A DNA stretch of 64,000 nt from an uncultured Jannaschia sp. (lineage in GTDB: Bacteria > Pseudomonadota > Alphaproteobacteria > Rhodobacterales > Rhodobacteraceae), in contig NZ_CANNEZ010000001.1 of assembly GCF_947503795.1 (NCBI RefSeq), forward strand, positions 1,479,001 to 1,543,000, read 5' to 3'. Shown in pieces: positions 44,066-55,770 of this stretch (position 1 is its first letter; every line of letters begins with the position of its first letter). The translations under genes and the position numbers were made by a program. Below the pieces are notes generated by a model. That model saw only the letters and a program-made list of their open reading frames with translations, had not been told where the DNA came from and made no database searches.

Positions 44066-44596
44066 CTAACTGCGTCGCCGCGCGAGTTCCCGGTAGAGCG
44101 CTGCGGGCGTAACGCCGATGCCGTCGGCGACCGCTTTCCAGCCGCCTCGCTCCGGCGGGCCGTGAAGTTCGAGCCAGCCGTCGAGGCGGTCCGAGAGACG
44201 CTTCAAGCGCATCAGTTCGACGCGGCCCCGTAGCGCCTGAATCTCGAGCGCAGCGCGTTGCAGCATCCTGGCCGTGGTAGTCGGGTCGGCCATCAGCCGG
44301 TCCATGAGGACGCCGCGCTCCAACGATAGCACGGTCCCCGCAATGCGCATGACGGCGTCGCAGTGATAGCGCGGCGCGAAGAGCGACGCCTCGGCCAGCA
44401 GCGTGCCGGCCGACGCGACATGGAGGGTGAGATGGCCCCCGTCCGCCAAGGGACGCTCCAGCGCCACCGCACCATCCCGCACGAGATGGACCGTCGTCAC
44501 AGGGTCGTCGCGGCGGAACAGGATCTGCCCGGCAGCCACATCGGACCGCCGGGCGTCCGCGAAGAGATCGATGAGTTCGGACATGATCCGGATCAT
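44066..44596 (-). CDS. Crp/Fnr-family transcriptional regulator
   Basis: 176 residues from ATG 44596 (AGGA 4-5 nt upstream), short for the family. Cyclic-nucleotide-binding beta barrel (about 20-100: AGQILFRRDDPVTTVHLVRDGAVALERPL, SAGTLLAEASLF), dimer helix, and an abbreviated C-terminal HTH (WKAVADGIGVTPAALYREL). No N-terminal Cys cluster for Fe-S as in FNR. It diverges from a periplasmic protein gene with a 54-bp gap at the edge of the copper island, so it may control that promoter. Ligand unknown. Confidence 0.8.
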   Translation of the reverse strand: MIRIMSELIDLFADARRSDVAAGQILFRRDDPVTTVHLVRDGAVALERPLADGGHLTLHVASAGTLLAEASLFAPRYHCDAVMRIAGTVLSLERGVLMDRLMADPTTTARMLQRAALEIQALRGRVELMRLKRLSDRLDGWLELHGPPERGGWKAVADGIGVTPAALYRELARRRS

Positions 44597-44650
44597 ACGT
44601 TCCTGTCCCGCCTCCAGGATAGGGTGCGACGCCATCCAATGGAGGTTCGC

Positions 44651-45229
44651 ATGCGCACCCGTCTGCTTCTCGCCATCCTCGCCGCACCCACCGTCCTCGT
44701 GGTCACGTCCCCGCCGGCATCGGCGCAGTCGGCTCATTCCCACACCGCCGGCATGGCGCACGGGGCGGCGAGCGCCGCGGCCTTGACCGAGCCGGGCCAG
44801 GGGGCGTTCGCCGCGCTGTCAGAGGTCGTGCGGGTGCTAGAGGCCGATCCGGACACCGACTGGTCGCGGGTCGATCTCGACGGACTGCGCGCGCATCTAG
44901 TGGACATGGACCTTCTCGCGACAGGCGCGGTGGTCGAGACGACGGGCCTGCCCGATGGCCTACGCGCTCGGGCTACCGGTCCCGCGGCGGTCCTCGGCGC
45001 CCTCCGCCGGATGGTGCCCGCTCATGCGATACAGCTCCGGGCCGATCAATCCTGGACGGTCGAGGCGGTGGTGGGACCCAAAGCCGTCACGCTGAGGGTC
45101 ACCGCGACCGATCCCGCGACCGTCGCCCGCATACAGGGGCTGGGCTTCTTCGGCCTGATGGCAAGCCAGGACCATCACCGCGCGCATCACCTCGCGATCG
45201 CGCGGGGCGACACGCCGCACGGGCACTAG
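44651..45229 (+). CDS. Exported His-rich protein of the copper island, unknown function
   Basis: 192 residues. ATG 44651 has GGAGG with 5-nt spacing and opens a Sec signal peptide (MRTRLLLAILAAPTVLVVTS, cleavage near ASA-QS). Mature N-terminus is HSHTAGMAHG, and the C-terminus ends DHHRAHHLAIARGDTPHGH, both potential metal-binding stretches. The central part (TEPGQGAFAALSEVVRVLEADPDTDWSRV) is probably helical. I do not recognise the family. It begins the run of copper genes but lacks the CsoR-type palindrome, and is controlled perhaps by the divergent Crp-like regulator. Confidence 0.72.
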   Translation: MRTRLLLAILAAPTVLVVTSPPASAQSAHSHTAGMAHGAASAAALTEPGQGAFAALSEVVRVLEADPDTDWSRVDLDGLRAHLVDMDLLATGAVVETTGLPDGLRARATGPAAVLGALRRMVPAHAIQLRADQSWTVEAVVGPKAVTLRVTATDPATVARIQGLGFFGLMASQDHHRAHHLAIARGDTPHGH

Positions 45230-45253
45230 GCGTAGCGGGCTTGCGCCGGCGCG

Positions 45254-45270
45254 ATACCCCCAATAGGTAT
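45254..45270. promoter_or_regulatory. CsoR-type operator, copy 1 (ATACC-N7-GGTAT)
   Basis: A 17-bp dyad, ATACC then CCCAATA then GGTAT, lies 7 bp before the start codon of the small exported protein at 45278. A possible -35 (TTGCGC, 45241-45246) precedes it so that the 3' arm would overlap the -10. The same arms and spacing recur at 48600 and 50800. Confidence 0.75.
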
Positions 45271-45277
45271 TGGATCG

Positions 45278-45601
45278 ATGCGAGCCGTCCTTTGCTTTCT
45301 TCTAACCTGTGCCGTGCTCATGATGGCGAGCCTGTCGGCGTCGCACGTCTCCGCGCATGTCGGTCATGGTGGAGGGGACGACATTATGCGGATGGACCAT
45401 TCGGACGATGCGTCCGCCTTGGCGGAATGCTGCGACGCGACGTCGGGGCGGACCGCGCCGGGCTGCGGGTTCGACGCTTCCCTCGAACGTGCTGCATTCG
45501 AGGTGGCGCAGACGGCAATGATCCTTGGGCACCGTATCGTGCAGGCGCGCGCGCCGGACGGTCTCGCCCCGGAGACGCCGCTCGATCCTCCGAAAATCTG
45601 A
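45278..45601 (+). CDS. Small exported His/Met/Cys-rich protein (CopL-like leader gene)
   Basis: 107 residues. Signal peptide MRAVLCFLLTCAVLMMASLS, then AHVGHGGGDDIMRMDHSDDASALAECC and a further Cys, giving a cluster of His, Met and Cys suited to copper binding. First gene of a predicted CsoR-controlled operon (this gene, DUF411, cytochrome c, CopC, CopD, membrane protein). Position and composition recall CopL-type first genes of cop operons, but similarity is only general. With the operator 7 bp upstream there is almost no room for a leader, so the mRNA may be leaderless. Confidence 0.7.
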   Translation: MRAVLCFLLTCAVLMMASLSASHVSAHVGHGGGDDIMRMDHSDDASALAECCDATSGRTAPGCGFDASLERAAFEVAQTAMILGHRIVQARAPDGLAPETPLDPPKI

Positions 45602-45665
45602 AGGCTCGCACGAGACCCTTCCAGGCGCATCGCCGCGCCCGACCTTCGATTGAGGATACGATCCC

Positions 45666-46145
45666 ATGACCACACGCCGCAACCTGCTCGCCCTCCTGGG
45701 CGGAACGGCTTTCGCCGCCGCCTTGCCCCTCGCTGTCGGCGCCGAGATGCGCGCACCCCTCCACGTCCTCGCCGCCCCCGGCTGCGGGTGCTGCCATGCA
45801 TGGGCCGACCTCGCCAGCGCGCGGGGCCACGCCGTCACGGTCGAGGAGATGACCGACCCCGACGCGCAGAAGGCTGCGCTCGGCGTGCCGATAAATCTGG
45901 CCTCCTGCCATACGGTCCGGGCTGGGGATTACGTGTTCGAGGGGCACGTGCCCTTCGCCGCGCTCGACGCGGTGCTGCGGGACCGGCCGAACATCGCGGG
46001 TCTCGCCGTGCCGGGAATGCCGATGGGCTCGCCGGGCATGGGGGACGATCCGTCCGCGCGCTTCGACGTCATCGCCTTCGGCGGTGCGGCAGGCGCGGGC
46101 CGCGTGTTCTACCGCGCCGGGACGCCGGACCCCTTCGCGGGCTGA
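45666..46145 (+). CDS. DUF411 metal-binding protein, Tat-exported
   Basis: 159 residues. Leader MTTRRNLLALLGGTAFAAALP has a twin Arg. The DUF411 core has APGCGCCHAW (Cys40, Cys42, Cys43, His44), LASCHTV and EGHVP, then PGMPMGSPGM. DUF411 proteins accompany copper and silver resistance genes and are presumed periplasmic metal binders or chaperones. It sits 64 bp downstream of the leader gene and 4 bp before the cytochrome gene. Confidence 0.85.
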   Translation: MTTRRNLLALLGGTAFAAALPLAVGAEMRAPLHVLAAPGCGCCHAWADLASARGHAVTVEEMTDPDAQKAALGVPINLASCHTVRAGDYVFEGHVPFAALDAVLRDRPNIAGLAVPGMPMGSPGMGDDPSARFDVIAFGGAAGAGRVFYRAGTPDPFAG

Positions 46146-46149
46146 CGGC

Positions 46150-46617
46150 ATGCGCCGGTCCATCGCCATCGGCGGTCTCGCGCTCGCAAGCGCGGCCGCC
46201 CTCTCGCTTTTCGTCCTCTCTACTTGGACGGCACGGGCGGAGATCGTGCGCCTGCGGGCGGACGACCCGTCCACCGTCGCCATCGGGGCACAGGTCTACG
46301 CCGCCGAATGCGCCGCGTGCCACGGCACCGACCTGGAAGGTCAGCCCGACTGGCGCGTGCGGGGCGCCGACGGCCTGCTGCCCGCCCCGCCCCACGACGA
46401 GACGGGACATACGTGGCACCATAGCGGCGACGATCTGTTCCGGATCGTGAAGCTGGGCCTGCCGACGCTGATCGGCGACCCGGACTACGCCACGGCCATG
46501 CCGGCCTATGGCGGCGTGCTGACGGACGACGAGATCGTCGCCGTCCTCTCATACATCAAATCCACATGGCCCGCGGAGATCCGCGCGGCCCACGACGCGA
46601 AGGTTCCCACCCGATGA
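46150..46617 (+). CDS. Class I c-type cytochrome, membrane-anchored or exported
   Basis: 155 residues. N-terminal hydrophobic segment (about 5-25) acts as signal or anchor. Haem motif CAACH at 54-58, axial Met likely in ATAMPAYGG, and a C-terminal helix EIVAVLSYIKSTWP. It carries electrons in the periplasm. In this island it could accept electrons from copper oxidation by the multicopper oxidase or cupredoxins, which is inference. Its stop overlaps the CopC start (ATGA). Confidence 0.87.
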   Translation: MRRSIAIGGLALASAAALSLFVLSTWTARAEIVRLRADDPSTVAIGAQVYAAECAACHGTDLEGQPDWRVRGADGLLPAPPHDETGHTWHHSGDDLFRIVKLGLPTLIGDPDYATAMPAYGGVLTDDEIVAVLSYIKSTWPAEIRAAHDAKVPTR

Positions 46618-46961
46618 CCCGATCCCTCCTGCTCGCGGCGATCCTGTCCGCTGCCGCCGCGACCGGCGCGACCGCCCATGAGAAGACCGCCGCCACGACT
46701 CCGCAAGTCGGCGCGACCGTGGCCGAAGTGCCGATGCTGCACGTCGTGTTCGGAGGTCCCATGCGCGTGACCTTCGCGGAACTGACTCGCGCGGACGTGC
46801 CGGTCGCCATCACCCGTAAGGCGGGCATGGAGCCGGTCACCGAACTTCATGCAACGCCGGACGCCGCGCTGGCGCCAGGCGCCTACCGCTTCGAATGGCG
46901 CGGGTTGGCCGAAGACGGGCATCCGATGCAGGGCGAACTGCTCTTCACCGTGGCCGAGTAA
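46614..46961 (+). CDS. copC: CopC-family periplasmic copper-binding protein
   Basis: 115 residues. Signal peptide MTRSLLLAAILSAAAATGATA is followed directly by His22, so the mature protein would start with His, the first Cu(II) ligand in CopC proteins. The second site is DGHPMQGE (Asp101, His103). Fold strands VAEVPMLHVVFGGPM and APGAYRFEWRGLAEDGHPM match the family. It delivers or buffers Cu(II) for CopD, encoded 2 bp downstream. Confidence 0.9.
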   Translation: MTRSLLLAAILSAAAATGATAHEKTAATTPQVGATVAEVPMLHVVFGGPMRVTFAELTRADVPVAITRKAGMEPVTELHATPDAALAPGAYRFEWRGLAEDGHPMQGELLFTVAE

Positions 46962-46963
46962 CG

Positions 46964-47842
46964 ATGACGGGCCTCGCCCCCATGGACGCCTTCGCGGTCG
47001 CGAGCGCGCTGCTCAAGGCGGCGGGCTATGCCGCGGCGCTGCTCGCCATGGGGGGCGTGCTCTTCGCCGTGGCCTTCGACGACCGGGCGGAGGCGGACGT
47101 CCTGCGCCTCGCCCGCCGCCTTGCCGTCGGCGCGGCGCTGCTCGGCCTCGCGGTCCTCGCGGCGCGGTTCGGCCTGCGCGCGGCGCGCATCTCCGGGATG
47201 GGCTGGGATGGCGCAACGGATCCCACGATGCTGGGCTTCGTCTGGCAGAGCCCGCTCGGCACCGCGGCAGCCTGGCGCGGGCTGGGCGAGGCGGCGATCC
47301 TCGCGGTCCTGCTGCCGGGCATCGGGCGGTTCGCCGCAATCGGTGGTGCGGTGGCGGTGGCCTATTCCTACACGCAGGTCGGGCACACGCTGGCCGAGCC
47401 GCGTTGGATCCTGGCCGTGCTCTTGACCCTGCACCTCCTGGCTGCGGCGTTCTGGATCGGCGCGCTCGCGCCCCTCCATCGCGCCGCCCGAACATCCGAC
47501 GGCGCGCCGCTGCTCCACGCCTTCGGGGTGGCGGCAGGCGTCGCGGTCGCGTTACTGGCTATGGCCGGGACGGTCCTCGCCTGGCTTCTGGTCGGCTCGC
47601 TCGAAGGGTTGTTCGGTACGGCCTATGGCTGGGGCCTGCTCGCCAAGGTCGCGGTCGTCTGCGCGCTGCTCGGCCTCGCCGCCCTGAACAAGTGGCAACT
47701 CGTCCCTGCCCTGCGCGAGGACACTCCCGGCGCGGCTGCGACTCTGCGCCGGTCCATCGCCGTCGAAGGCGCGACGGTCGCGCTGATCCTCGTTCTGACG
47801 GCGGCGATCACCACTGCGACCACGCCGCCGATCAACCTATGA
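46964..47842 (+). CDS. copD: CopD-family copper transport membrane protein
   Basis: 292 residues with eight predicted membrane helices. Conserved histidines lie in YTQVGHTL and LTLHLLAAAFWIGAL, the latter being the CopD-family hallmark. It likely moves copper across the inner membrane together with CopC. Direction is debated for the family. Overlaps the next gene by 4 nt. Confidence 0.88.
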   Translation: MTGLAPMDAFAVASALLKAAGYAAALLAMGGVLFAVAFDDRAEADVLRLARRLAVGAALLGLAVLAARFGLRAARISGMGWDGATDPTMLGFVWQSPLGTAAAWRGLGEAAILAVLLPGIGRFAAIGGAVAVAYSYTQVGHTLAEPRWILAVLLTLHLLAAAFWIGALAPLHRAARTSDGAPLLHAFGVAAGVAVALLAMAGTVLAWLLVGSLEGLFGTAYGWGLLAKVAVVCALLGLAALNKWQLVPALREDTPGAAATLRRSIAVEGATVALILVLTAAITTATTPPINL

Positions 47843-48279
47843 CAGGGGGCGTCGTCATACCGCTTGCCGCCGGCACCGCCTTTGCCGCCGCGACCATCGC
47901 TCTGCTGCGCTGGACGGGGATGGACCGGGATCGCGCGACGGGACCGCTGATGCTCGTCGCGATCGCCCTGTTCTATCCGGTCTTCGCCGTGGAGAACGGA
48001 TCGCGCGCAGAGGTCGCGATCCATGCGGGCATCGCCCTGGCGTTTCTCGGAGCCGCCATCATCGGGCATCGCCGGGGCCTCGCCCTGGTCGGCATCGCCA
48101 TGATGGCCCACGGCGCGTTCGACCTTGCTGCCCACGTCCTGACCGATGGGCCCGCGCCGCGCTGGTGGGGACCGTTCTGTCTCGGCGTCGATGTCGTCCT
48201 CGGCGCGTGGCTCCTGATCGCCCGGCCATGGGCGACGATCAGTCGCGAGCGCGATCGAGAAGCTGGATCAGCTCCATGA
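47839..48279 (+). CDS. Small polytopic membrane protein of the copper operon
   Basis: 146 residues, four to five hydrophobic helices with His residues at helix ends (EVAIHAGIAL, IIGHRRGLALVGIAMMAHGAFDLAAHVL). I do not assign a family. It is translationally coupled to CopD and is the last gene of the first copper operon. Its 3' end overlaps the convergent csoR gene by 41 bp. A copper-related membrane role is inferred from position and histidines. Confidence 0.7.
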   Translation: MTGGVVIPLAAGTAFAAATIALLRWTGMDRDRATGPLMLVAIALFYPVFAVENGSRAEVAIHAGIALAFLGAAIIGHRRGLALVGIAMMAHGAFDLAAHVLTDGPAPRWWGPFCLGVDVVLGAWLLIARPWATISRERDREAGSAP

Positions 48280-48511
48280 ACTTCGCCCTCTGGTCCGTCC
48301 GGTCGCCCGAGGCGAGCGCATCCTCGATGCAGTGCGACGCATGATCCTCGATCACCAGCTTCTCCACGCCCTTGAGGGCGGCGCGCACGGCCGCGATCTG
48401 CGTGAGGATGTCGACGCAGTAGCGGTCCTCCTCGACCATCCGCGCCACACCGCGAACCTGGCCCTCCAGGCGCTTGAGACGTTTCAATGCGGCTTCGCGG
48501 TTCTCATGCAT
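48239..48511 (-). CDS. csoR: CsoR-type copper-sensing repressor
   Basis: 90 residues from ATG 48511. Alpha-helical CsoR/RcnR fold: ALKRLKRLEGQVRGVARMVEEDRYCVDILTQIA. The Cu(I) ligands Cys32, His57 and Cys61 show exactly the C-x24-H-x3-C spacing of copper sensors. RcnR and FrmR have different patterns. In-frame ATGs at 48541 and 48592 would add 10 or 27 residues; none has a good SD, and I chose the family's usual N-terminus. The ATACC-N7-GGTAT dyad upstream (48600) implies autoregulation and control of the divergent operon. Confidence 0.9.
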   Translation of the reverse strand: MHENREAALKRLKRLEGQVRGVARMVEEDRYCVDILTQIAAVRAALKGVEKLVIEDHASHCIEDALASGDRTDQRAKFMELIQLLDRARD

Positions 48512-48599
48512 GGGCCAGATAAAGGCTTTGCGCCCGTCCATGTCGAGAGCGCGCGTGCCCGGCGGACCGACGGAACCGTTTCCCATAACCATCGTTCAA

Positions 48600-48616
48600 A
48601 TACCCATAAGGGGTAT
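48600..48616. promoter_or_regulatory. CsoR-type operator, copy 2 (ATACC-N7-GGTAT)
   Basis: The 17-bp dyad ATACC-CATAAGG-GGTAT lies in the divergent region between csoR and the DUF305 gene, 11 bp before the latter's ATG. In this copy the arms extend to ATACCC/GGGTAT with a 5-bp centre. Best evidence that CsoR acts on this island. Confidence 0.8.
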
Positions 48617-48627
48617 AAGGAGGCCCT

Positions 48628-49140
48628 ATGACCCATCACGACAACTCACAATCTGGCGGCTCCGGCTATGGCCGGTTCGCCGCGATGATCGCGGCCTCGA
48701 CGGTCATCATGTACGGCCTGATGTATCTCAACACCTACGCGCTGGACCACGTGTTCTTCAGCCAGACGCGGATGTGGATGGCGCTCTACATGGGTGCGAT
48801 GATGGCGATCGTCATGCTTGCCTTCATGCTCGGCATGTACGCGAACCGTACCATCAATATAGCGATCTTCGCAGGTGCCGCCGTGGCATTTGCGGCCTTT
48901 CTCTATCTTGTTCGCAGCCAGGATACCGTGGGGGACGTCGCATGGATGAAGGCGATGATCCCGCACCATTCCATCGCCATCATGACGTCCGAGCGGGCCG
49001 ACATCTCCGACCCTCGCGTCCGCGAACTGGCCGATGCCATCATCGAGGCGCAGCGCGCCGAGATCGCGGAGATGAAGCGATACATCGCTGACATCGAGGC
49101 GAACGGCGATGCCGCGCCCGGCACGCCGCGCGCCGAGTGA
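48628..49140 (+). CDS. Membrane-anchored DUF305 protein
   Basis: 170 residues. Three hydrophobic helices (about 17-35, 48-70, 76-95), then a DUF305 domain with WMKAMIPHHSIAIMTSERAD (His113, His114) and LADAIIEAQRAEIAEMKRYI. DUF305 proteins bind metals through His/Met and occur in copper and iron loci. SD AAGGAGG, 4-nt spacing. First gene of the second predicted CsoR operon. Confidence 0.87.
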   Translation: MTHHDNSQSGGSGYGRFAAMIAASTVIMYGLMYLNTYALDHVFFSQTRMWMALYMGAMMAIVMLAFMLGMYANRTINIAIFAGAAVAFAAFLYLVRSQDTVGDVAWMKAMIPHHSIAIMTSERADISDPRVRELADAIIEAQRAEIAEMKRYIADIEANGDAAPGTPRAE

Positions 49141-49177
49141 CCCCGCCACCCTGCAACCCGACAGCCCGGAGGCTATC

Positions 49178-49957
49178 ATGCCCAAGGACACCCTGACCGA
49201 CCCCGCAGCCACAGCGACCGGCAAGAAAGCCGTTCTTTACCGGATGGTAATGGACAAGCACACCTGTCCCTACGGGATCAAATCCAAGTACCTGCTGGAG
49301 AAGGAGGGCTTCACGGTCGACGACCGCTGGCTGGAGACCCGCGAGGAGACCGACGCCTTCAAGGCTGAGCATGGCGTGAAGACCACGCCGCAAACGTGGA
49401 TCGAGGGCGAGCGCGTCGGCGGATACGACGACCTCCAGGTCCGCCTTGGCAAGAAGAATCCGAACGAGAGCGACACCTCCTACGTCCCCGTGATCGCGAT
49501 CTTCGCCACGGGTCTGGGTCTGGCTCTGGCCTTCGCCACCTTCGCGGGCGTGCCGTGGTTGTCCTGGCAGGTGCTGGGCTGGTTCATCTCGATCAACATG
49601 GTCCTGCTGGGGCTTCAGAAGCTTAAGGACCTGGAATCCTTCTCGACCATGTTCCTGAACTACGACCTTCTGGCGAAGCGCTGGCCGCCCTACGGCTATA
49701 TCTATCCCTTCGTGGAGACGGGTGCCGGCCTCCTGATGACGGCGATGGTCTGGACCTGGCTGTCCGCCCCTGCCGCCTTGATCGTGGCGACCATAGGTGC
49801 GGTCAGCGTGTTCAAAGCGGTCTATGTCGACAAGCGCGAACTCAAATGCGCCTGCGTCGGCGGCAACTCCAACGTGCCCCTGGGCTTCGTCAGCCTTACG
49901 GAGAACCTCGCCATGATCGGCATGTCGGTCGTCATGCTCGGGCTCCTGGTCCTGTGA
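49178..49957 (+). CDS. Glutaredoxin fused to MauE/DoxX-like membrane domain
   Basis: 259 residues. Residues 17-92 are a glutaredoxin fold with a monothiol-style active site HTCPYGIK (Cys30-Pro-Tyr-Gly), KTTPQTWIEG (cis-Pro loop) and GGYDDL. Residues 105-259 form a four-helix membrane domain of the MauE/DoxX kind with CACVGGNSNVPLGFVSLTEN between the last helices. The fusion suggests thiol electron transfer through the membrane to a periplasmic disulfide partner, plausibly the DsbA-like protein encoded next. GGAG SD, 7 nt. Confidence 0.85.
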   Translation: MPKDTLTDPAATATGKKAVLYRMVMDKHTCPYGIKSKYLLEKEGFTVDDRWLETREETDAFKAEHGVKTTPQTWIEGERVGGYDDLQVRLGKKNPNESDTSYVPVIAIFATGLGLALAFATFAGVPWLSWQVLGWFISINMVLLGLQKLKDLESFSTMFLNYDLLAKRWPPYGYIYPFVETGAGLLMTAMVWTWLSAPAALIVATIGAVSVFKAVYVDKRELKCACVGGNSNVPLGFVSLTENLAMIGMSVVMLGLLVL

Positions 49958-49988
49958 CCGGCATGCCTTCGACGCACGGGGTCACGGC

Positions 49989-50759
49989 GTGACGGCGACC
50001 CCAAGGCGCAACCTGCTGGTCGGGCTCCTCGCCCTCGGCGGCGGCTACGCCGTCCTGCGGACCGGTACGGCGGCCTATGGGCGACTGACCGGCATGGACC
50101 TCGCTTACGAGCCGATGGAATGGCCCGAGGGCTTCCGCAAGCTCGTCGCAGGGTCCACCAGTTCCGGCGGCTTCGACCCCTTCGTGGGGTTGGACGCACC
50201 GGCGACGCCAGACCGCGCGGTCGATACCGTCGCCGTGGAGGCCGATCCCTGCGGCGCCCTCTTCGGCGGGCCACTCGATTCCGGCATCGTCCCGATCGCA
50301 TCGTTCTCCGACTACAATTGCCCCTTCTGCCGCGTCCTCACCCAGCGGCTCGCGGCCTATGAGGCGGCGGAGGACGGGGTGCGGGTCGTCTGGCACGAGC
50401 TGCCGATCTTGGGGGACGGCTCGCGCGCCGCCGCGCGCGCCGCGCTCGCGGCCAAGCGGCAGGGCGCCTATGTCGCGTTCCACGAGCGATTGATGCGCTC
50501 CCCCTTCGAGCCGACGGACGAATACCTCCGCGTGCTCGCGGCCGATTTGGGCATCGACGCGGACCGGCTCGCCGCGGACATGGCGAGCGATGCGGTCGCG
50601 GACGAGATCGCGACGAGCTTGGCACTCGCACGCGGCCTCGCCACGGTCGGCACCCCCGTCCTCGTGATCGGACGGACGGTGATCGAGGGCGCGCCCGACA
50701 TGGATACGATCAAGCGGATCGTTGCCGAAGAGCGCGAGCAACCACCGATATGCGCATGA
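49989..50759 (+). CDS. DsbA-like thioredoxin-fold oxidoreductase
   Basis: 256 residues, GTG start. An N-terminal hydrophobic segment preceded by RR (PRRNLLVGLLALGGGY) serves as a Tat-like leader or anchor. Thioredoxin fold with insert: DYNCPFCRVL (Cys111-Pro-Phe-Cys114), helical domain, and cis-Pro loop VGTPVLVIG. It is a periplasmic thiol-disulfide enzyme, probably paired with the adjacent glutaredoxin-MauE protein, and may keep copper-protein cysteines in the right state. Last gene of the second copper operon. Confidence 0.86.
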   Translation: MTATPRRNLLVGLLALGGGYAVLRTGTAAYGRLTGMDLAYEPMEWPEGFRKLVAGSTSSGGFDPFVGLDAPATPDRAVDTVAVEADPCGALFGGPLDSGIVPIASFSDYNCPFCRVLTQRLAAYEAAEDGVRVVWHELPILGDGSRAAARAALAAKRQGAYVAFHERLMRSPFEPTDEYLRVLAADLGIDADRLAADMASDAVADEIATSLALARGLATVGTPVLVIGRTVIEGAPDMDTIKRIVAEEREQPPICA

Positions 50760-50799
50760 CGAGTCATCTCACCGGGCGCCGAACGGCCGACGAGGCCAC

Positions 50800-50816
50800 A
50801 TACCCCTGTGAGGTAT
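50800..50816. promoter_or_regulatory. CsoR-type operator, copy 3 (ATACC-N7-GGTAT) with promoter
   Basis: ATACC-CCTGTGA-GGTAT, extended to CATACC/GGTATG. A TTGACA (50818-50823) begins directly after it and a weak TAGCGA lies 17 bp further (50841-50846). If that promoter is used, the first base of the mRNA falls next to ATG 50854. It precedes the third copper operon. Confidence 0.75.
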
Positions 50817-50853
50817 GTTGACACGATCCCCTATGTTCTCTAGCGAATGTGTC

Positions 50854-51228
50854 ATGCGTGCTCTCATAGCCATTCTCGTGACGATTCGGACGACGGCCAT
50901 CTTGGCCGTCATTGCCGTTCTCGCGTTTGGCTCCCTATCGGCATCCGTGTCGGCGGGGACGTATGATCATCATGCATTCGTTTCGATCGACGATCATTCG
51001 CTTCAGGGTGAGCGTCAGGCCGCGTCCTGCCCGTCCGGCGACGTTTCGGGCGAACACGGCATGGATGATGGCAACTGCTGCATCGGCACGTGCACCACGA
51101 TCCTGACCGTCGCCGCACCGGTCGACGTCCCCGAACGGTTGCTTGTCCTGAGCGGTCCAGCATTCCGTCCGTTGTCCGCACGCTCGAGTTTTGTCGAGTT
51201 CGTTCGTCCGCCGTCTCTGAGCATCTGA
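50854..51228 (+). CDS. Small exported Cys/His-containing protein (leader gene of third copper operon)
   Basis: 124 residues from ATG 50854. Alternative ATGs at 50815 and 50833 lie within or near the operator/promoter. A long hydrophobic leader (LIAILVTIRTTAILAVIAVLAFG) with cleavage near VSA precedes a YDHHAF segment and EHGMDDGNCCIGTCTTIL, a His/Met/Cys cluster. The pattern echoes the small leader protein of the first copper operon (His-Met-Asp then a Cys pair), though they are not close in sequence. Family not recognised; metal binding inferred. Confidence 0.65.
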   Translation: MRALIAILVTIRTTAILAVIAVLAFGSLSASVSAGTYDHHAFVSIDDHSLQGERQAASCPSGDVSGEHGMDDGNCCIGTCTTILTVAAPVDVPERLLVLSGPAFRPLSARSSFVEFVRPPSLSI

Positions 51229-51306: not shown

Positions 51307-51528
51307 ATGACAATCAAGATTTTCGCGGTCGGGGCCTTGCCTCTGATCCTAGCCGCGTGCGGCACCTCGACGCCGTTGCCGGACGTGGTCGGCATCACGG
51401 CCCCCGCCAGCCCGACGGTCGCGGCGCGGCGCACCGGCTACGCGAACCCAATTCGTAACTACACGATACGCCCCGTGGTCGATCCGGCCGACTGGCGCGA
51501 ATCCAATCGTTCGCAGGAGGGCAAGTGA
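51307..51528 (+). CDS. Small lipoprotein
   Basis: 73 residues. MTIKIFAVGALPLILAACGTS is a lipoprotein signal with lipobox LAAC. The mature part is proline-rich and short (PLPDVVGITAPASPTV...), ending ESNRSQEGK. It overlaps the efflux gene start by one base (TGATG), so it may be a partner of the outer-membrane protein. No family recognised. Confidence 0.65.
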   Translation: MTIKIFAVGALPLILAACGTSTPLPDVVGITAPASPTVAARRTGYANPIRNYTIRPVVDPADWRESNRSQEGK

Positions 51529-52988
51529 TGCGCCTTCTGAAGATGAGCGCGATCGTCCTGCCGTTCGCCTTGGGGGCCTGCGCCACGACATTGCCGGCGG
51601 GGATCACTGCCAGTGGAGCAGGGTTCGGCCTCGTCGCAAGCAAGACGCAAGGTGCCACCGGCAAGCGAACCGTCTGGGTGCAGAACGCGGCGCAAGCCCG
51701 CGAGGTCGCCGAAAGCGTCCATGCGATGACGCATCGCCGCACGATCTCCGCCGACACGGCCGTTCAGGTCGCCCTCCTCAACAACCGGGGTCTCCAGGCA
51801 GCCTATGCCGATATCGGGATTTCCGCAGCCGAGGTTTGGCAGCAGGCGACCCCGGAGAACCCGATCGTGTCCGTCGGACTTCTGGGCATCGGCGCGCCGG
51901 AACTCGGCCTCTTCCGAGCCCTCGAATCCGTCGTTGCGGTGAACCTGCTCGATGCCCCGACCCGCAGACGCCGGGTGGCGGTCGCGCAGGCGGATTATCA
52001 GCGCGCCCAAATGCAGGCCGTAGTCGATACCCTGACCCTGGCGGCGCAGACCCGCACCGCATGGATCGATGCCGTCGCCGCGTTCGAAACGGTGGCACTC
52101 CTGAACCAGGCCGCTTCCGCGGCGGACGCCTCTTCGGAACTGGCGGCACAGCTCGGACGAACCGGGGCGCTGAACCGCGCCGGTCAGGCGCGCGAACAAG
52201 TCTTCGACGCCGAACTCGCCGCGCAAGCGGCCGAGGCGCGTCTGGCGGCAGCGGCGGCCAAGGAGCGGTTGACCCGATTGATGGGACTTTGGGGGACGGA
52301 GGTCGACTACTTCGTTCCGGATGCACTGCCCGCCCTGCCGGGCGGCCTCAAATCGACCGCGGGGATCGAGGCGCGCGCGCTTCAGAACCGCGTCGATCTT
52401 GAAGTGGCCCGCCTGAGCTTGGCGGCCACAGCCGCTGCCTATGGCCTGACCGACGCGACGCGTGTCCTGACCGATCTCGAAGTCATCGCCGGGGCCGAGC
52501 TGGAGCGTGAGCGTGAGGACGGTGACATCGAAGAGGAGGTTACGCCGCAGGTCGAGCTGGAGTTCCAAATCCCGATATACGACAGCGGCCGCGCCCGGTT
52601 GCGCAAGGCGGAACTCTCCTACCTCCAGGGCGCGAACCTCCTGGCCGAGACGGCCGTCGCGGTCCGCTCCGAAGCGCGCGACGCGGAGACGCAGTACCGC
52701 GGCAGCTATGCCGTGGCGCGCCAATACCGCGACGTGATCCTGCCGCTCCGCCGAACGATCAACGAGGAATCGCTGCTGGCGAACAACGGGATGATCACCA
52801 GCACGTTCGAGCTTCTCGCCGACGTGCGCGAGGGGCTTGGCAGCCAGCTCGATGCGGCCGAAGCCAAACATCAGTTTTGGCTCGCAGCAGCCAATCTCGA
52901 TGCCGCGATCTACGGCGGTGGCGGTGCGGGTGGCGGCGGCGGCGAGGGCGGCGGTGTCGATCTCGGCGGCGGCGGCGCGCCTCACTGA
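51528..52988 (+). CDS. TolC-type outer-membrane efflux lipoprotein
   Basis: 486 residues. Lipobox FALGAC at about 15-20. Two repeats of the outer-membrane-factor helical hairpins: AVQVALLNNRGLQAAYADIGISAAEVWQ, LDAPTRRRRVAVAQADYQRAQM, LEFQIPIYDSGRARLRKAELSY and FELLADVREGLGSQLDAAEAKHQFWLAAANLDAAI. The C-terminus is an unusual glycine-rich tail of about 25 residues ending in APH. Such proteins normally work with an RND pump and periplasmic adaptor, neither of which is seen here. ATG 51528 has GGAGG upstream. Confidence 0.85.
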   Translation: MRLLKMSAIVLPFALGACATTLPAGITASGAGFGLVASKTQGATGKRTVWVQNAAQAREVAESVHAMTHRRTISADTAVQVALLNNRGLQAAYADIGISAAEVWQQATPENPIVSVGLLGIGAPELGLFRALESVVAVNLLDAPTRRRRVAVAQADYQRAQMQAVVDTLTLAAQTRTAWIDAVAAFETVALLNQAASAADASSELAAQLGRTGALNRAGQAREQVFDAELAAQAAEARLAAAAAKERLTRLMGLWGTEVDYFVPDALPALPGGLKSTAGIEARALQNRVDLEVARLSLAATAAAYGLTDATRVLTDLEVIAGAELEREREDGDIEEEVTPQVELEFQIPIYDSGRARLRKAELSYLQGANLLAETAVAVRSEARDAETQYRGSYAVARQYRDVILPLRRTINEESLLANNGMITSTFELLADVREGLGSQLDAAEAKHQFWLAAANLDAAIYGGGGAGGGGGEGGGVDLGGGGAPH

Positions 52989-53019: not shown

Positions 53020-54378
53020 ATGCTCAATCGACGTCAACTCCTGGGAACCGGCGCAGCAGGCGCCGCCCTCGTCTCCACCCAAGCGTGGTCTCAGACCTCG
53101 AACCGCAGCTTGCCCGAAGCTGTCCTAACAAACGCCTCGGGAACGCAGGCCCCGATAGTTCCCACCACCGGGCCCGACTACAATCCCGTCGTCACGCTAA
53201 ACGGTTGGACCTTGCCGTTTCGCATGAAGGACGGCGTGAAGGAGTTCCATCTCGTCGCCGAACCGGTCGAGCGTGAGCTGGCCGAAGGCACGACGGCCTA
53301 CCTTTGGGGCTACAACGGCACCTCGACGGGGCCGACGATCGAGGCGGTTGAGGGCGATCGCGTCCGCATCTTCGTGACCAACCGCCTGCCGGAGCCGACG
53401 AGCGTCCATTGGCACGGACAGATCCTGCCATCGGGCATGGATGGCGTGCATGGGCTGAGCGGGCCCGGCATTCCGACCGGCAAGACCTATGCCTACGAAT
53501 TCGACCTCAAGAAGTCAGGCACGTTCATGTACCATCCGCACGCCGACGAAATGGTTCAGATGGCCATGGGGATGATGGGCATGTTCGTCGTCCATCCGAA
53601 GGACCCGAGCTTTCGCCGCGTCGATCGGGACTTCCTCATCATGTTGAACGCCTTCGATCTCGATCCGGGCACCTACGTGCCGCGGATCATGGAGATGACG
53701 GACTTCAACCTGTGGACGTGGAACAGCCGGATCTTTCCGGGCATCGATCCGCTGGTCGTAGGCCGGGGCGACGACGTGCGCGTGCGGGTCGGCAACCTGA
53801 CGATGACGAACCACCCGATCCACATGCACGGCTACGACTTCAAGGTGTCGTGCACCGATGGCGGTTGGGTCCCGCCGGAGGTCGCCTGGCCAGAGGTCTC
53901 CATCGACATCCCCGTCGGCGCGATGCGCGCCTTCGATTTCAAGGCCGACCATCTGGGGGACTGGGCGATCCACTGCCACAAGTCGCACCACACGATGAAC
54001 GCCATGGGCCACGACATCCCGACCTTCATCGGTGCGAACAAGACCGACGTGACCGAGCGCATCCGTCGGCTGCAGCCCGAATACATGCCGATGGGCACCG
54101 CCGGCATGGCCGATATGGGCAAGATGGAGATGCCGATCCCCCGCAACACCGTTCCGATGATGAACGGATGGGGCAAGTACGGCCCGATCGAGATGGGCGG
54201 CATGTTCTCCGTCGTGAAAGTCCGGGAGGGCATCGCGTCGGGCGATTACTCCGATCCCGGTTGGTACGACAGCCCACCGCACGAGACCGTGGCCGAATGG
54301 ACCGGCGACGTGCCTGCCCCCGTCGAGGTGACCGACCCGGCGACCCGCTACACCGATCTGTCCAAGATCAGCGGCTGA
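53020..54378 (+). CDS. Multicopper oxidase (copper-resistance type), Tat-exported
   Basis: 452 residues. Tat leader MLNRRQLLGTGAAGAALVS. All four copper-binding motifs are present: HWHGQ (130-132), YHPHAD (172-174), HPIHMHG (265-270) and HCHKSHH (318-324) with a downstream Met. A Met-rich tail (MPMGTAGMADMGKMEMP) resembles the Cu(I)-binding loops of CueO/CopA-type enzymes. It probably oxidises Cu(I) to less toxic Cu(II) in the periplasm. Followed closely by two cupredoxins. Confidence 0.92.
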   Translation: MLNRRQLLGTGAAGAALVSTQAWSQTSNRSLPEAVLTNASGTQAPIVPTTGPDYNPVVTLNGWTLPFRMKDGVKEFHLVAEPVERELAEGTTAYLWGYNGTSTGPTIEAVEGDRVRIFVTNRLPEPTSVHWHGQILPSGMDGVHGLSGPGIPTGKTYAYEFDLKKSGTFMYHPHADEMVQMAMGMMGMFVVHPKDPSFRRVDRDFLIMLNAFDLDPGTYVPRIMEMTDFNLWTWNSRIFPGIDPLVVGRGDDVRVRVGNLTMTNHPIHMHGYDFKVSCTDGGWVPPEVAWPEVSIDIPVGAMRAFDFKADHLGDWAIHCHKSHHTMNAMGHDIPTFIGANKTDVTERIRRLQPEYMPMGTAGMADMGKMEMPIPRNTVPMMNGWGKYGPIEMGGMFSVVKVREGIASGDYSDPGWYDSPPHETVAEWTGDVPAPVEVTDPATRYTDLSKISG

Positions 54379-54411: not shown

Positions 54412-54906
54412 ATGAAGAAGACACTGATGCCGATCGCGGTGTTCGGAGCGCTCGCCGCTCCGGCCCTTGCGGACGGCTACCACCGCGGACCGCATGACGG
54501 ACCGGTCCTCCATGCCGACGCGATGGCGATCGGCCACCCGGGCAGTCCGGACCTGGTCGACCGGACGATCGACGTGTCCATGCTGGATGCCTCCGATGAG
54601 GCGATGGCCTTCGACGTCGAGGCGCTAGAGATCGAGCGCGGCGAGACGATCCGATTCGTCCTGACGAACCGGGGCGGCGAGCCGCACGACTTCGTCATGG
54701 CGACGCCCGAGGAGATCGCGGCGCACCGCGCCGAGATGTCCGGCATGCCGGATATGAACCACGAGGCGGTCTATGCCGCGCGCGTGGAACCCGGCGAGAC
54801 CGCGACCCTCGTCTGGACCTTCGCCAACGAAGGCGCCTTCGCCTTCGCCTGTCTGATTCCAGGCCACTACGAGGCCGGAATGCGCGGTCGCCTGACCGTG
54901 AGCTGA
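54412..54906 (+). CDS. Exported cupredoxin (blue copper protein), copy A
   Basis: 164 residues. Signal peptide MKKTLMPIAVFGALAAPALA. His-rich N-terminus (YHRGPHDG). Type 1 copper ligands: His92 (GEPHDF), Cys147 (FAFACLIPGHYEAGM), His152 and Met157. Likely an electron-transfer or copper-binding partner of the upstream multicopper oxidase. It is a paralogue of the next gene. Confidence 0.9.
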   Translation: MKKTLMPIAVFGALAAPALADGYHRGPHDGPVLHADAMAIGHPGSPDLVDRTIDVSMLDASDEAMAFDVEALEIERGETIRFVLTNRGGEPHDFVMATPEEIAAHRAEMSGMPDMNHEAVYAARVEPGETATLVWTFANEGAFAFACLIPGHYEAGMRGRLTVS

Positions 54907-54943: not shown

Positions 54944-55444
54944 ATGAGCAGACTATTGATCCTTTCGGCAGCGATGCTGTCGTTCGCCGCGCCTACCTTC
55001 GCCGCAGGCACCCACAAGGATGGCCATGGCGATGGTCATGCCGATGAGCACCATGCCGAGATGGCGGTCGGGATGCCCGGCGATGCGCATCACGCCACGC
55101 GGACGGTCGAGATCTCCATGCTGGAGACGGATGACGGCGAGATGCTGTTCGAGCCGCGCGACCTGACCTTCGCAGAAGGGGAAACCGTCCGCTTCGTCAT
55201 CACCAACGACGGTGAGCAGGAGCACGAGTTCGTCCTCGATACGCCAGAAGCCAATCAGGAGCACAAGGACCTGATGGCGCGGTTCCCCGAGATGGAGCAC
55301 GACGATCCGAACGCGATCCGCCTCCAGCCGGGCGAGGGCGGCGAGATCGTCTGGACCTTCGCCAACGAGGGCGAGTTCGAGTTCGCCTGCCTCATCCTCG
55401 GCCACTACGAATCCGGCATGCACGGACCCGTCGTCGTTCGGTGA
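54944..55444 (+). CDS. Exported cupredoxin, copy B (tandem duplicate)
   Basis: 166 residues. Signal peptide MSRLLILSAAMLSFAAPTFA. N-terminal His-rich stretch THKDGHGDGHADEHHAEM is longer than in copy A. Type 1 ligands His94 (EQEHEF), Cys149, His154, Met159 with the shared motif FACLILGHYESGM. Colinear with copy A over its whole length, so a tandem duplication with divergence in the metal-capturing N-terminus. Confidence 0.9.
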   Translation: MSRLLILSAAMLSFAAPTFAAGTHKDGHGDGHADEHHAEMAVGMPGDAHHATRTVEISMLETDDGEMLFEPRDLTFAEGETVRFVITNDGEQEHEFVLDTPEANQEHKDLMARFPEMEHDDPNAIRLQPGEGGEIVWTFANEGEFEFACLILGHYESGMHGPVVVR

Positions 55445-55479: not shown

Positions 55480-55770
55480 ATGAAAACGCTTATCCGATCG
55501 ATCACCATGGCGATCGCTCTCGCCACCGCGCCGACCGCCATGGTGGCGCAGGAAACGACCTATACCAAGGGCAGCGTCAAAGCGATCGACGCCGAGGCCG
55601 GCAAGGTCACCATCATCCACGAGGAACTGCTAAACCTCGACATGCCTGCGATGACGATGGTGTTCCGCGCCGACGAGGAGACGTTGGCCGAACTGACCGA
55701 AGGCGAAGAGATCGAGTTCGTCGCCGAGCGCGTCGAAGGCAAGCTGACGGTCGTCGACCTAAAGGAATAA
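55480..55770 (+). CDS. CusF-like periplasmic copper-binding protein
   Basis: 96 residues. Signal peptide to about 23 (AMVA-QE). OB-fold strands YTKGSVKAIDAEAGKVTIIHEE, then LDMPAMTMVF. By comparison with CusF the metal ligands would be His47, Met58 and Met60, and Met55 stands where CusF has its Trp. It carries Cu(I) in the periplasm, normally to a CusCBA pump, which is absent from this window. SD AAGGA. Confidence 0.87.
   Translation: MKTLIRSITMAIALATAPTAMVAQETTYTKGSVKAIDAEAGKVTIIHEELLNLDMPAMTMVFRADEETLAELTEGEEIEFVAERVEGKLTVVDLKE

Follow-up and report, generated by a model that had tools for sequence, protein, structure and literature searches.

Predicted CsoR operators before three copper gene runs in a Jannaschia genome, two of the runs beginning with CutF-like leader genes

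CsoR regulons and CutF- or CruR-type leaders are each already known. Here we describe a 64,000-nucleotide stretch from an uncultured Jannaschia sp. (assembly GCF_947503795.1, contig NZ_CANNEZ010000001.1, positions 1,479,001 to 1,543,000), referred to below as the window, in which three runs of copper genes each follow a predicted CsoR operator and two begin with a CutF-like leader gene. In Streptomyces lividans CsoR recognises a pseudopalindrome with the consensus ATATACCCCTNAGGGGTATAT, in which TAC and GTA repeats 9 bp apart are required, and its RLxR motif contacts DNA, RcnR having RASK (PMC3902906). The RicR regulon of Mycobacterium tuberculosis (PMC10141476) places several operons, including a multicopper oxidase, under a CsoR-family repressor. 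CutF, encoded in the cutFOG operon of Rhodobacter capsulatus, is exported during translation, needs CxxxC and a proline-rich end, and permits translation of cutO by opening a stem-loop over the cutO Shine-Dalgarno sequence (PMC9973294). CutF-like proteins have been delimited as shorter than 170 residues, with a Sec signal peptide, CxxxC or a Cys-containing variant in its place and a C-terminal PP, and encoded near a multicopper oxidase (PMC8456105). CruR of Bordetella pertussis is a relative of CutF with CXXC and RAPP 45 residues apart (PMC9426467), and it pauses in vitro at RAPP (PMC12992588).

The first-pass annotation had proposed that the palindrome ATACC-N7-GGTAT places three runs of copper genes under a CsoR encoded divergently beside the middle copy. 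The elements concerned are as follows.

45241-45246, plus strand: candidate -35 element (TTGCGC) of run 1
45254-45270, no strand assigned: predicted CsoR operator 1, exact motif; proximal arm TAGGTAT (45264-45270) is the candidate -10 element
45278-45601, plus strand: hd1, predicted exported leader with Cys-Cys and a third Cys, end LDPPKI; no Pfam or NCBIfam family
48239-48511, minus strand: CsoR repressor (PF02583), with C32, H57 and C61
48600-48616, no strand assigned: predicted CsoR operator 2, exact motif, between csoR and the DUF305 gene
50800-50816, no strand assigned: predicted CsoR operator 3, exact motif, ending one base before TTGACA (50818-50823)
50854-51228, plus strand: hd3, CutF-like predicted exported leader with CIGTC, end VRPPSLSI

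An exact scan confirmed the motif at 45254, 48600 and 50800 and found no further copy in the window, at gene starts or elsewhere, and 100 dinucleotide shuffles of the window gave 0 copies. With two mismatches allowed, 9 matches were found in the window against 6.8 expected, so only exact sites carry weight. The genome-wide scan suggested by the first-pass annotation (3.46 Mb) returned 5 exact copies against 1 for a control pattern read backwards. Both sites outside the window (C1:906447 and C1:908209) lie in a second copper locus with its own CsoR. All five sit at copper loci and carry at least an ATACCC arm. The candidate regulon is wider than the one first proposed, comprising five operators and two CsoRs. 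One-mismatch copies in the genome (21 with the 5 exact ones counted in, 15 for the control pattern) were mostly background and were not counted. One of them, C1:1574465, precedes a P-type ATPase gene and was considered as a copA operator; it was rejected because the site falls within a different long reading frame and because the ATPase scores under the heavy-metal cut-off and looks by eye like a calcium type.

In a comparison set of 80 csoR loci from other genomes (loci carry L numbers), we counted 93 copies of ATACC-N7-GGTAT; none of 29 permuted arms exceeded 4 copies, and any spacer length but 7 gave 0 to 4. An exact operator was present no more than 150 bp upstream of csoR in 55 of the 80. 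Among the remaining 25 loci, 13 had a one-mismatch site within 250 bp, one had a two-mismatch site, and 11 had nothing better than three mismatches, including L054, which starts almost at a contig end. ATACC-N7-GGTAT equals TAC-N9-GTA, the type-2 CsoR operator defined biochemically (PMC3902906), and this operator was found at the csoR gene and at the candidate targets. Genome count, enrichment at csoR loci and this match support the proposed regulon over the three runs, which we regard as well supported and of a known kind. Exact operators paired 24-32 bp apart before one csoR were found in L037 (7936/7968), L045 (7928/7953) and L046 (7927/7951), and these are perhaps cooperative sites.

The CsoR of the window scored 105 bits against PF02583 (cut-off 22.8), and its two best solved relatives are CsoRs. 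The C-x24-H-x3-C ligands reported in the first-pass annotation hold for the divergent minus-strand gene beside the middle site, and C32-x24-H57-x3-C61 is present in both CsoRs of the genome. Residues 11-14 carry the RLxR motif, as RLKR in the window CsoR and RLSR in the second. The gene likely starts at 48511 and not at 48592, which puts operator 2 upstream of both its neighbours, 88 bp from csoR and 11 bp from the DUF305 gene. The nickel sensor InrS likewise has C-H-C ligands; gene content suggests copper, rather than nickel, as the effector here. The candidate regulon shares with that of RicR a CsoR-family repressor and several operons with a multicopper oxidase among them, but the window CsoR fell below the NCBIfam RicR cut-off (87 bits against 175). 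It resembles the S. lividans system in TAC-N9-GTA with G-tracts, in RLxR and in having several operators including one at csoR (PMC3902906), and differs in that the window targets are mostly periplasmic or membrane defence genes and not copZA, that the genome has two CsoRs, and that two window operons carry CutF-like leaders.

The hd1-type sites (n = 18) comprised the window site, its paralogue and 16 relatives. The proximal operator arm is TAGGTAT in 18 of 18, against 3 of 58 csoR-side sites; in 17 sites TTG precedes it by 17 nt, and in 15 the start codon lies 5 nt past the operator (6 nt in two, 7 nt in one). The simplest reading is that TAGGTAT serves as half-operator and -10 element at once, with the transcript starting at or next to the ATG. 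Bound there, CsoR would exclude RNA polymerase. By position, TAGGTAT could possibly be a Shine-Dalgarno sequence instead; a -10 element with a leaderless start is favoured because of the exact 17-nt spacing of TTG. In run 3 a weak -10 element 17 nt past TTGACA would put the start near the ATG at 50854, and L097 has the same layout.

hd1 proteins begin with a hydrophobic segment, carry Cys-Cys and a third Cys, and after a variable stretch have GPPK, DPPK or DPPR at or near the end. The three Cys and the PP are invariant in 13 of 13 sequences. CxxxC itself is absent, CC-x9/10-C standing in its place, and hd1 fits the CutF-like rule for a Cys motif with C-terminal PP only through this variant. 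The distance from CC to PP, which was no inclusion criterion, is 53 residues in 17 of the 18 sequences, the other having 52. The window copy matched no Pfam or NCBIfam model, DUF2946 (PF11162) included; some relatives gave weak sub-threshold Pfam matches, with DUF2946 found in 2 of 13 (best E 0.19). A profile search of 295 genomes of the family recovered hd1 at 6 places in 5 genomes, each directly behind an exact operator; two of the four outside genomes repeat sequences already in the set (L143 is identical to L016 by script, and L142 to L014 by eye). Of the 80 csoR loci, 16 have operator, hd1 and DUF411 in this order, usually followed by cytochrome c, copC and copD genes, and in most of these relatives a csoR, operator, glutaredoxin-MauE arrangement adjoins the operon. 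hd1 may be among the 5,334 CutF-like proteins catalogued by CutF studies; DUF411 does not appear in the main text of PMC9973294 or PMC8456105.

The window copy of hd3 (124 residues) has CIGTC, RPPSLSI and a multicopper oxidase in the same run, and by length, CxxxC, C-terminal PP and this neighbour it falls within the CutF-like rules. In its family both Cys and the C-terminal PP are kept in 8 of 8 members and CxxxC in 7 (L100 has a wider spacing), and 7 of the 8 loci continue with a multicopper oxidase gene. hd3 scored just under the curated DUF2946 cut-off (20.2 bits against 23.7), one of the eight members matches this family (E 0.1), and a plasmid search with hd3 gave 0 matches. The N-termini of hd1 and hd3 are hydrophobic by eye; a hydropathy rule covered just the open reading frames (ORFs) from the set of 80 relatives.

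Among 4660 short ORFs from the 80 csoR loci, a rule-based scan picked out 36 as leader-like. Nineteen lay within 120 nt of an operator: 16 from the hd1 clade, L052, L075 and L048, the last of which looks spurious, leaving 18 plausible. Three others are found downstream of csoR and on the csoR strand, at a distance of 16 nt in L065, about 130 nt in L052 and about 1.1 kb in L045. By these predictions the pairing of operator and leader extends past one clade, though most instances belong to one clade. In other lineages (L045, L052, L065, L075) CutF-like ORFs were seen in or beside csoR regions, L052 having one on each side; in L075 (Silvimonas) the leader stands between the operator and DUF411 and oxidase genes.

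As with CutF (PMC9973294, PMC8456105), each leader is a predicted small exported protein with a Cys motif and a C-terminal Pro-Pro, encoded by the first gene of a copper operon, and the downstream Shine-Dalgarno sequence is predicted to be paired. Unlike CutF, the leaders here are preceded by a predicted CsoR operator; hd1 differs further in CC-x9/10-C instead of CxxxC, in its DUF411 operon and in that its own end codons are the candidate anti-Shine-Dalgarno sequence. CruR likewise is an upstream ORF in which the spacing between a Cys motif and a terminal Pro-Pro is almost constant, but it ends in RAPP and acts through Rho-dependent termination ahead of an uptake gene (PMC9426467), whereas hd1 ends in GPPK, DPPK or DPPR and hd3 mostly in RPP.

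The candidate pairing in the window involves two short segments.

45585-45590, plus strand: candidate anti-Shine-Dalgarno sequence ATCCTC in the hd1 end codons, by complementarity (p 0.08 for this copy alone)
45652-45657, plus strand: GAGGAT, Shine-Dalgarno region of the DUF411 gene, complementary to 45585-45590

The end codons of hd1 are complementary over at least 6 nt to the ribosome-binding region of the next gene in 16 of 18 hd1-type cases, with CGGTCC and GGACCG in the main clade and ATCCTC and GAGGAT in the window. The hd1 paralogue has nine base pairs, CCTCTCGAC with GTCGAGAGG. The downstream start was wrong for L032, L097 and L098, and these rows were not counted as support. When a ribosome was masked on the Pro-Pro codons, predicted Shine-Dalgarno accessibility rose in 15 of 18 hd1-type cases (from 0.11 to 0.33 in the window), and a control mask changed it by 0.02 or less; L005, with a wrong start, was not counted as support. 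It also rose in 5 of 7 members of the hd3 family, L100 being left out, but not in the window copy. We take pairing and predicted opening as suggestive only, because the relatives do not count as independent cases and because CCTCC and similar Pro codons are inherently anti-Shine-Dalgarno-like.

The remaining genes of the three runs (run 1 from hd1 to the DUF6010-like gene, run 2 from DUF305 to the DsbA-like gene, run 3 from hd3 to the CusF-like gene) are listed below.

45666-46145, plus strand: DUF411 protein (PF04214)
46150-46617, plus strand: cytochrome c (PF00034)
46614-46961, plus strand: CopC (PF04234)
46964-47842, plus strand: CopD (PF05425)
47839-48279, plus strand: DUF6010-like membrane protein, below cut-off (14.1 bits against 27.3)
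48628-49140, plus strand: DUF305 protein (PF03713)
49178-49957, plus strand: glutaredoxin-MauE fusion (PF00462, PF07291)
49989-50759, plus strand: DsbA-like protein (PF01323)
51307-51528, plus strand: small protein, lipoprotein-like by eye, conserved in the operon; no Pfam family
51525-52988, plus strand: TolC-like outer-membrane protein (PF02321)
53020-54378, plus strand: multicopper oxidase (PF07732, PF07731)
54412-54906, plus strand: cupredoxin 1 (PF00127)
54944-55444, plus strand: cupredoxin 2 (PF00127)
55480-55770, plus strand: CusF-like copper-binding protein (PF11604)

Just upstream of operator 1 (44066-45229) are a cNMP-binding regulator on the minus strand and an exported His-containing protein on the plus strand; 14 of the 80 relatives likewise have the cNMP-binding regulator next to their hd1 operon. 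The second CsoR locus (C1:903652-921436; L005, L006) has in one part an operator, a small ORF (the hd1 paralogue), DUF411 and cytochrome c genes, and in the other the second csoR divergent from an operator followed by DUF305 and glutaredoxin/MauE genes. By eye it looks like a mobile island, flanked by CDF-type transporters and a MerR-type regulator on one side and by transposase-, relaxase- and integrase-like ORFs on the other. The sole P1B-type ATPase above the TIGR01525 cut-off in the genome (99.88% complete) is at C2:435676-437268 (L140) and also matches the copper subfamily model TIGR01511. No copA was seen under CsoR, the L140 ATPase being on a different contig from all 5 operators. A MerR/CueR-like regulator with C-x7-C lies at C1:1545062-1545625 (L141), below the CueR and MerR cut-offs.

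On balance we favour, with some reserve, repression of the runs by CsoR at these operators together with copper-sensing leaders as a second check in runs 1 and 3. Given the CutF-like leader at the start of each of those two runs, transcription is probably not the sole layer of control there. Apo-CsoR, the product of the gene next to the middle site, would sit on each operator, which overlaps or abuts the core promoter, and so block RNA polymerase. Cytosolic Cu(I) would release it, and the three runs and the genes at the two operators of the second locus would be transcribed together. The first gene of runs 1 and 3 would then make an exported Cys-rich leader whose Pro-Pro near the end provides the second check: once the growing leader binds copper, the ribosome would pause at Pro-Pro. 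For run 1 and most relatives, a ribosome paused there would free the ribosome-binding site of the next gene, because the leader-end codons form its anti-Shine-Dalgarno strand. The DNA itself shows the operators and how they are conserved, how the promoters are laid out, and the leader families with their spacing; CsoR binding, release by copper, pausing and its direction (activation as in CutF, not repression as in CruR) are what we infer. A sharper version is tentative, and we would put it at somewhat short of an even chance: a two-compartment AND gate in which CsoR, reading cytosolic copper, opens transcription and the exported nascent leader, reading copper at the membrane, opens translation, with hd1 as a new family of copper-sensing arrest peptides apart from DUF2946, whose end codons double as anti-Shine-Dalgarno sequence on an mRNA that is maybe leaderless.

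Several observations weigh against this account. The bare operator pattern is unspecific by itself, an exact match being present in 106 of 149 sampled genomes of the family, and many background copies among the matches listed lack G-tracts; even with one mismatch allowed, 12 of the 80 csoR loci lack a site. The leaders are rare (hd1 in only 5 and hd3 in 8 of the 295 family genomes), and 16 of the 18 plausible operator-near leaders belong to one clade. CC and PP were required for inclusion in the hd1 set, in the rule-based scan and in the follow-up of the profile search. An exact operator precedes hd3 in only 2 of 8 loci (the window and L097), and the L097 copy adjoins csoR. Profile comparison of hd1 with hd3 gave no similarity beyond the putative signal peptide, and because of this we claim no common descent for the two. 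Pairing at the leader end is broken in L017 and at another place in L009, and no opening of the Shine-Dalgarno sequence was predicted for L009, L017, the window hd3 or L103.

The strongest alternative is a plain CsoR regulon in which hd1 and hd3 leave translation untouched and are simply small copper-binding proteins or chaperones of the periplasm. Both are rich in Cys and His with a hydrophobic segment at the start, some relatives show no Shine-Dalgarno effect, and CutF itself was first proposed as a copper-binding maturation factor (PMC8456105). We nevertheless consider it less likely: in all six places of the profile search hd1 opened the operon and stood immediately behind the operator, and the stretch between Cys and Pro-Pro is variable yet keeps its length and PP end, which fits an arrest peptide and not a chaperone. 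Much less probable is that the leaders work in the direction of CruR, with copper relieving the pause, lowering downstream expression and trimming an over-strong CsoR response. CruR, with its Cys motif at a fixed distance from the terminal Pro-Pro, does act in this way (PMC9426467), but it heads an uptake operon, whereas runs 1 and 3 consist of defence genes that should rise with copper; the anti-Shine-Dalgarno layout favours opening on pausing, and hd3 resembles CutF in CxxxC and the adjacent oxidase. That another regulator, for instance of MerR/CueR type, binds the palindromes and csoR is a mere neighbour is very improbable, since the motif tracks csoR across many genomes and is the CsoR operator defined in vitro (PMC3902906), even with a MerR/CueR-like gene about 2 kb beyond the window.

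Among the open-licence PubMed Central papers listed by our searches, none appeared to combine a CsoR regulon with CutF/CruR-type leaders, and the combination, the hd1 family especially, is new as far as these searches show. If CsoR and the leaders both act on one mRNA, copper would be gauged in two compartments before the periplasmic defence proteins are made. With their fixed distance from Cys to Pro, the leaders would also form a compact set for how a metal outside the ribosome controls a pause inside it.

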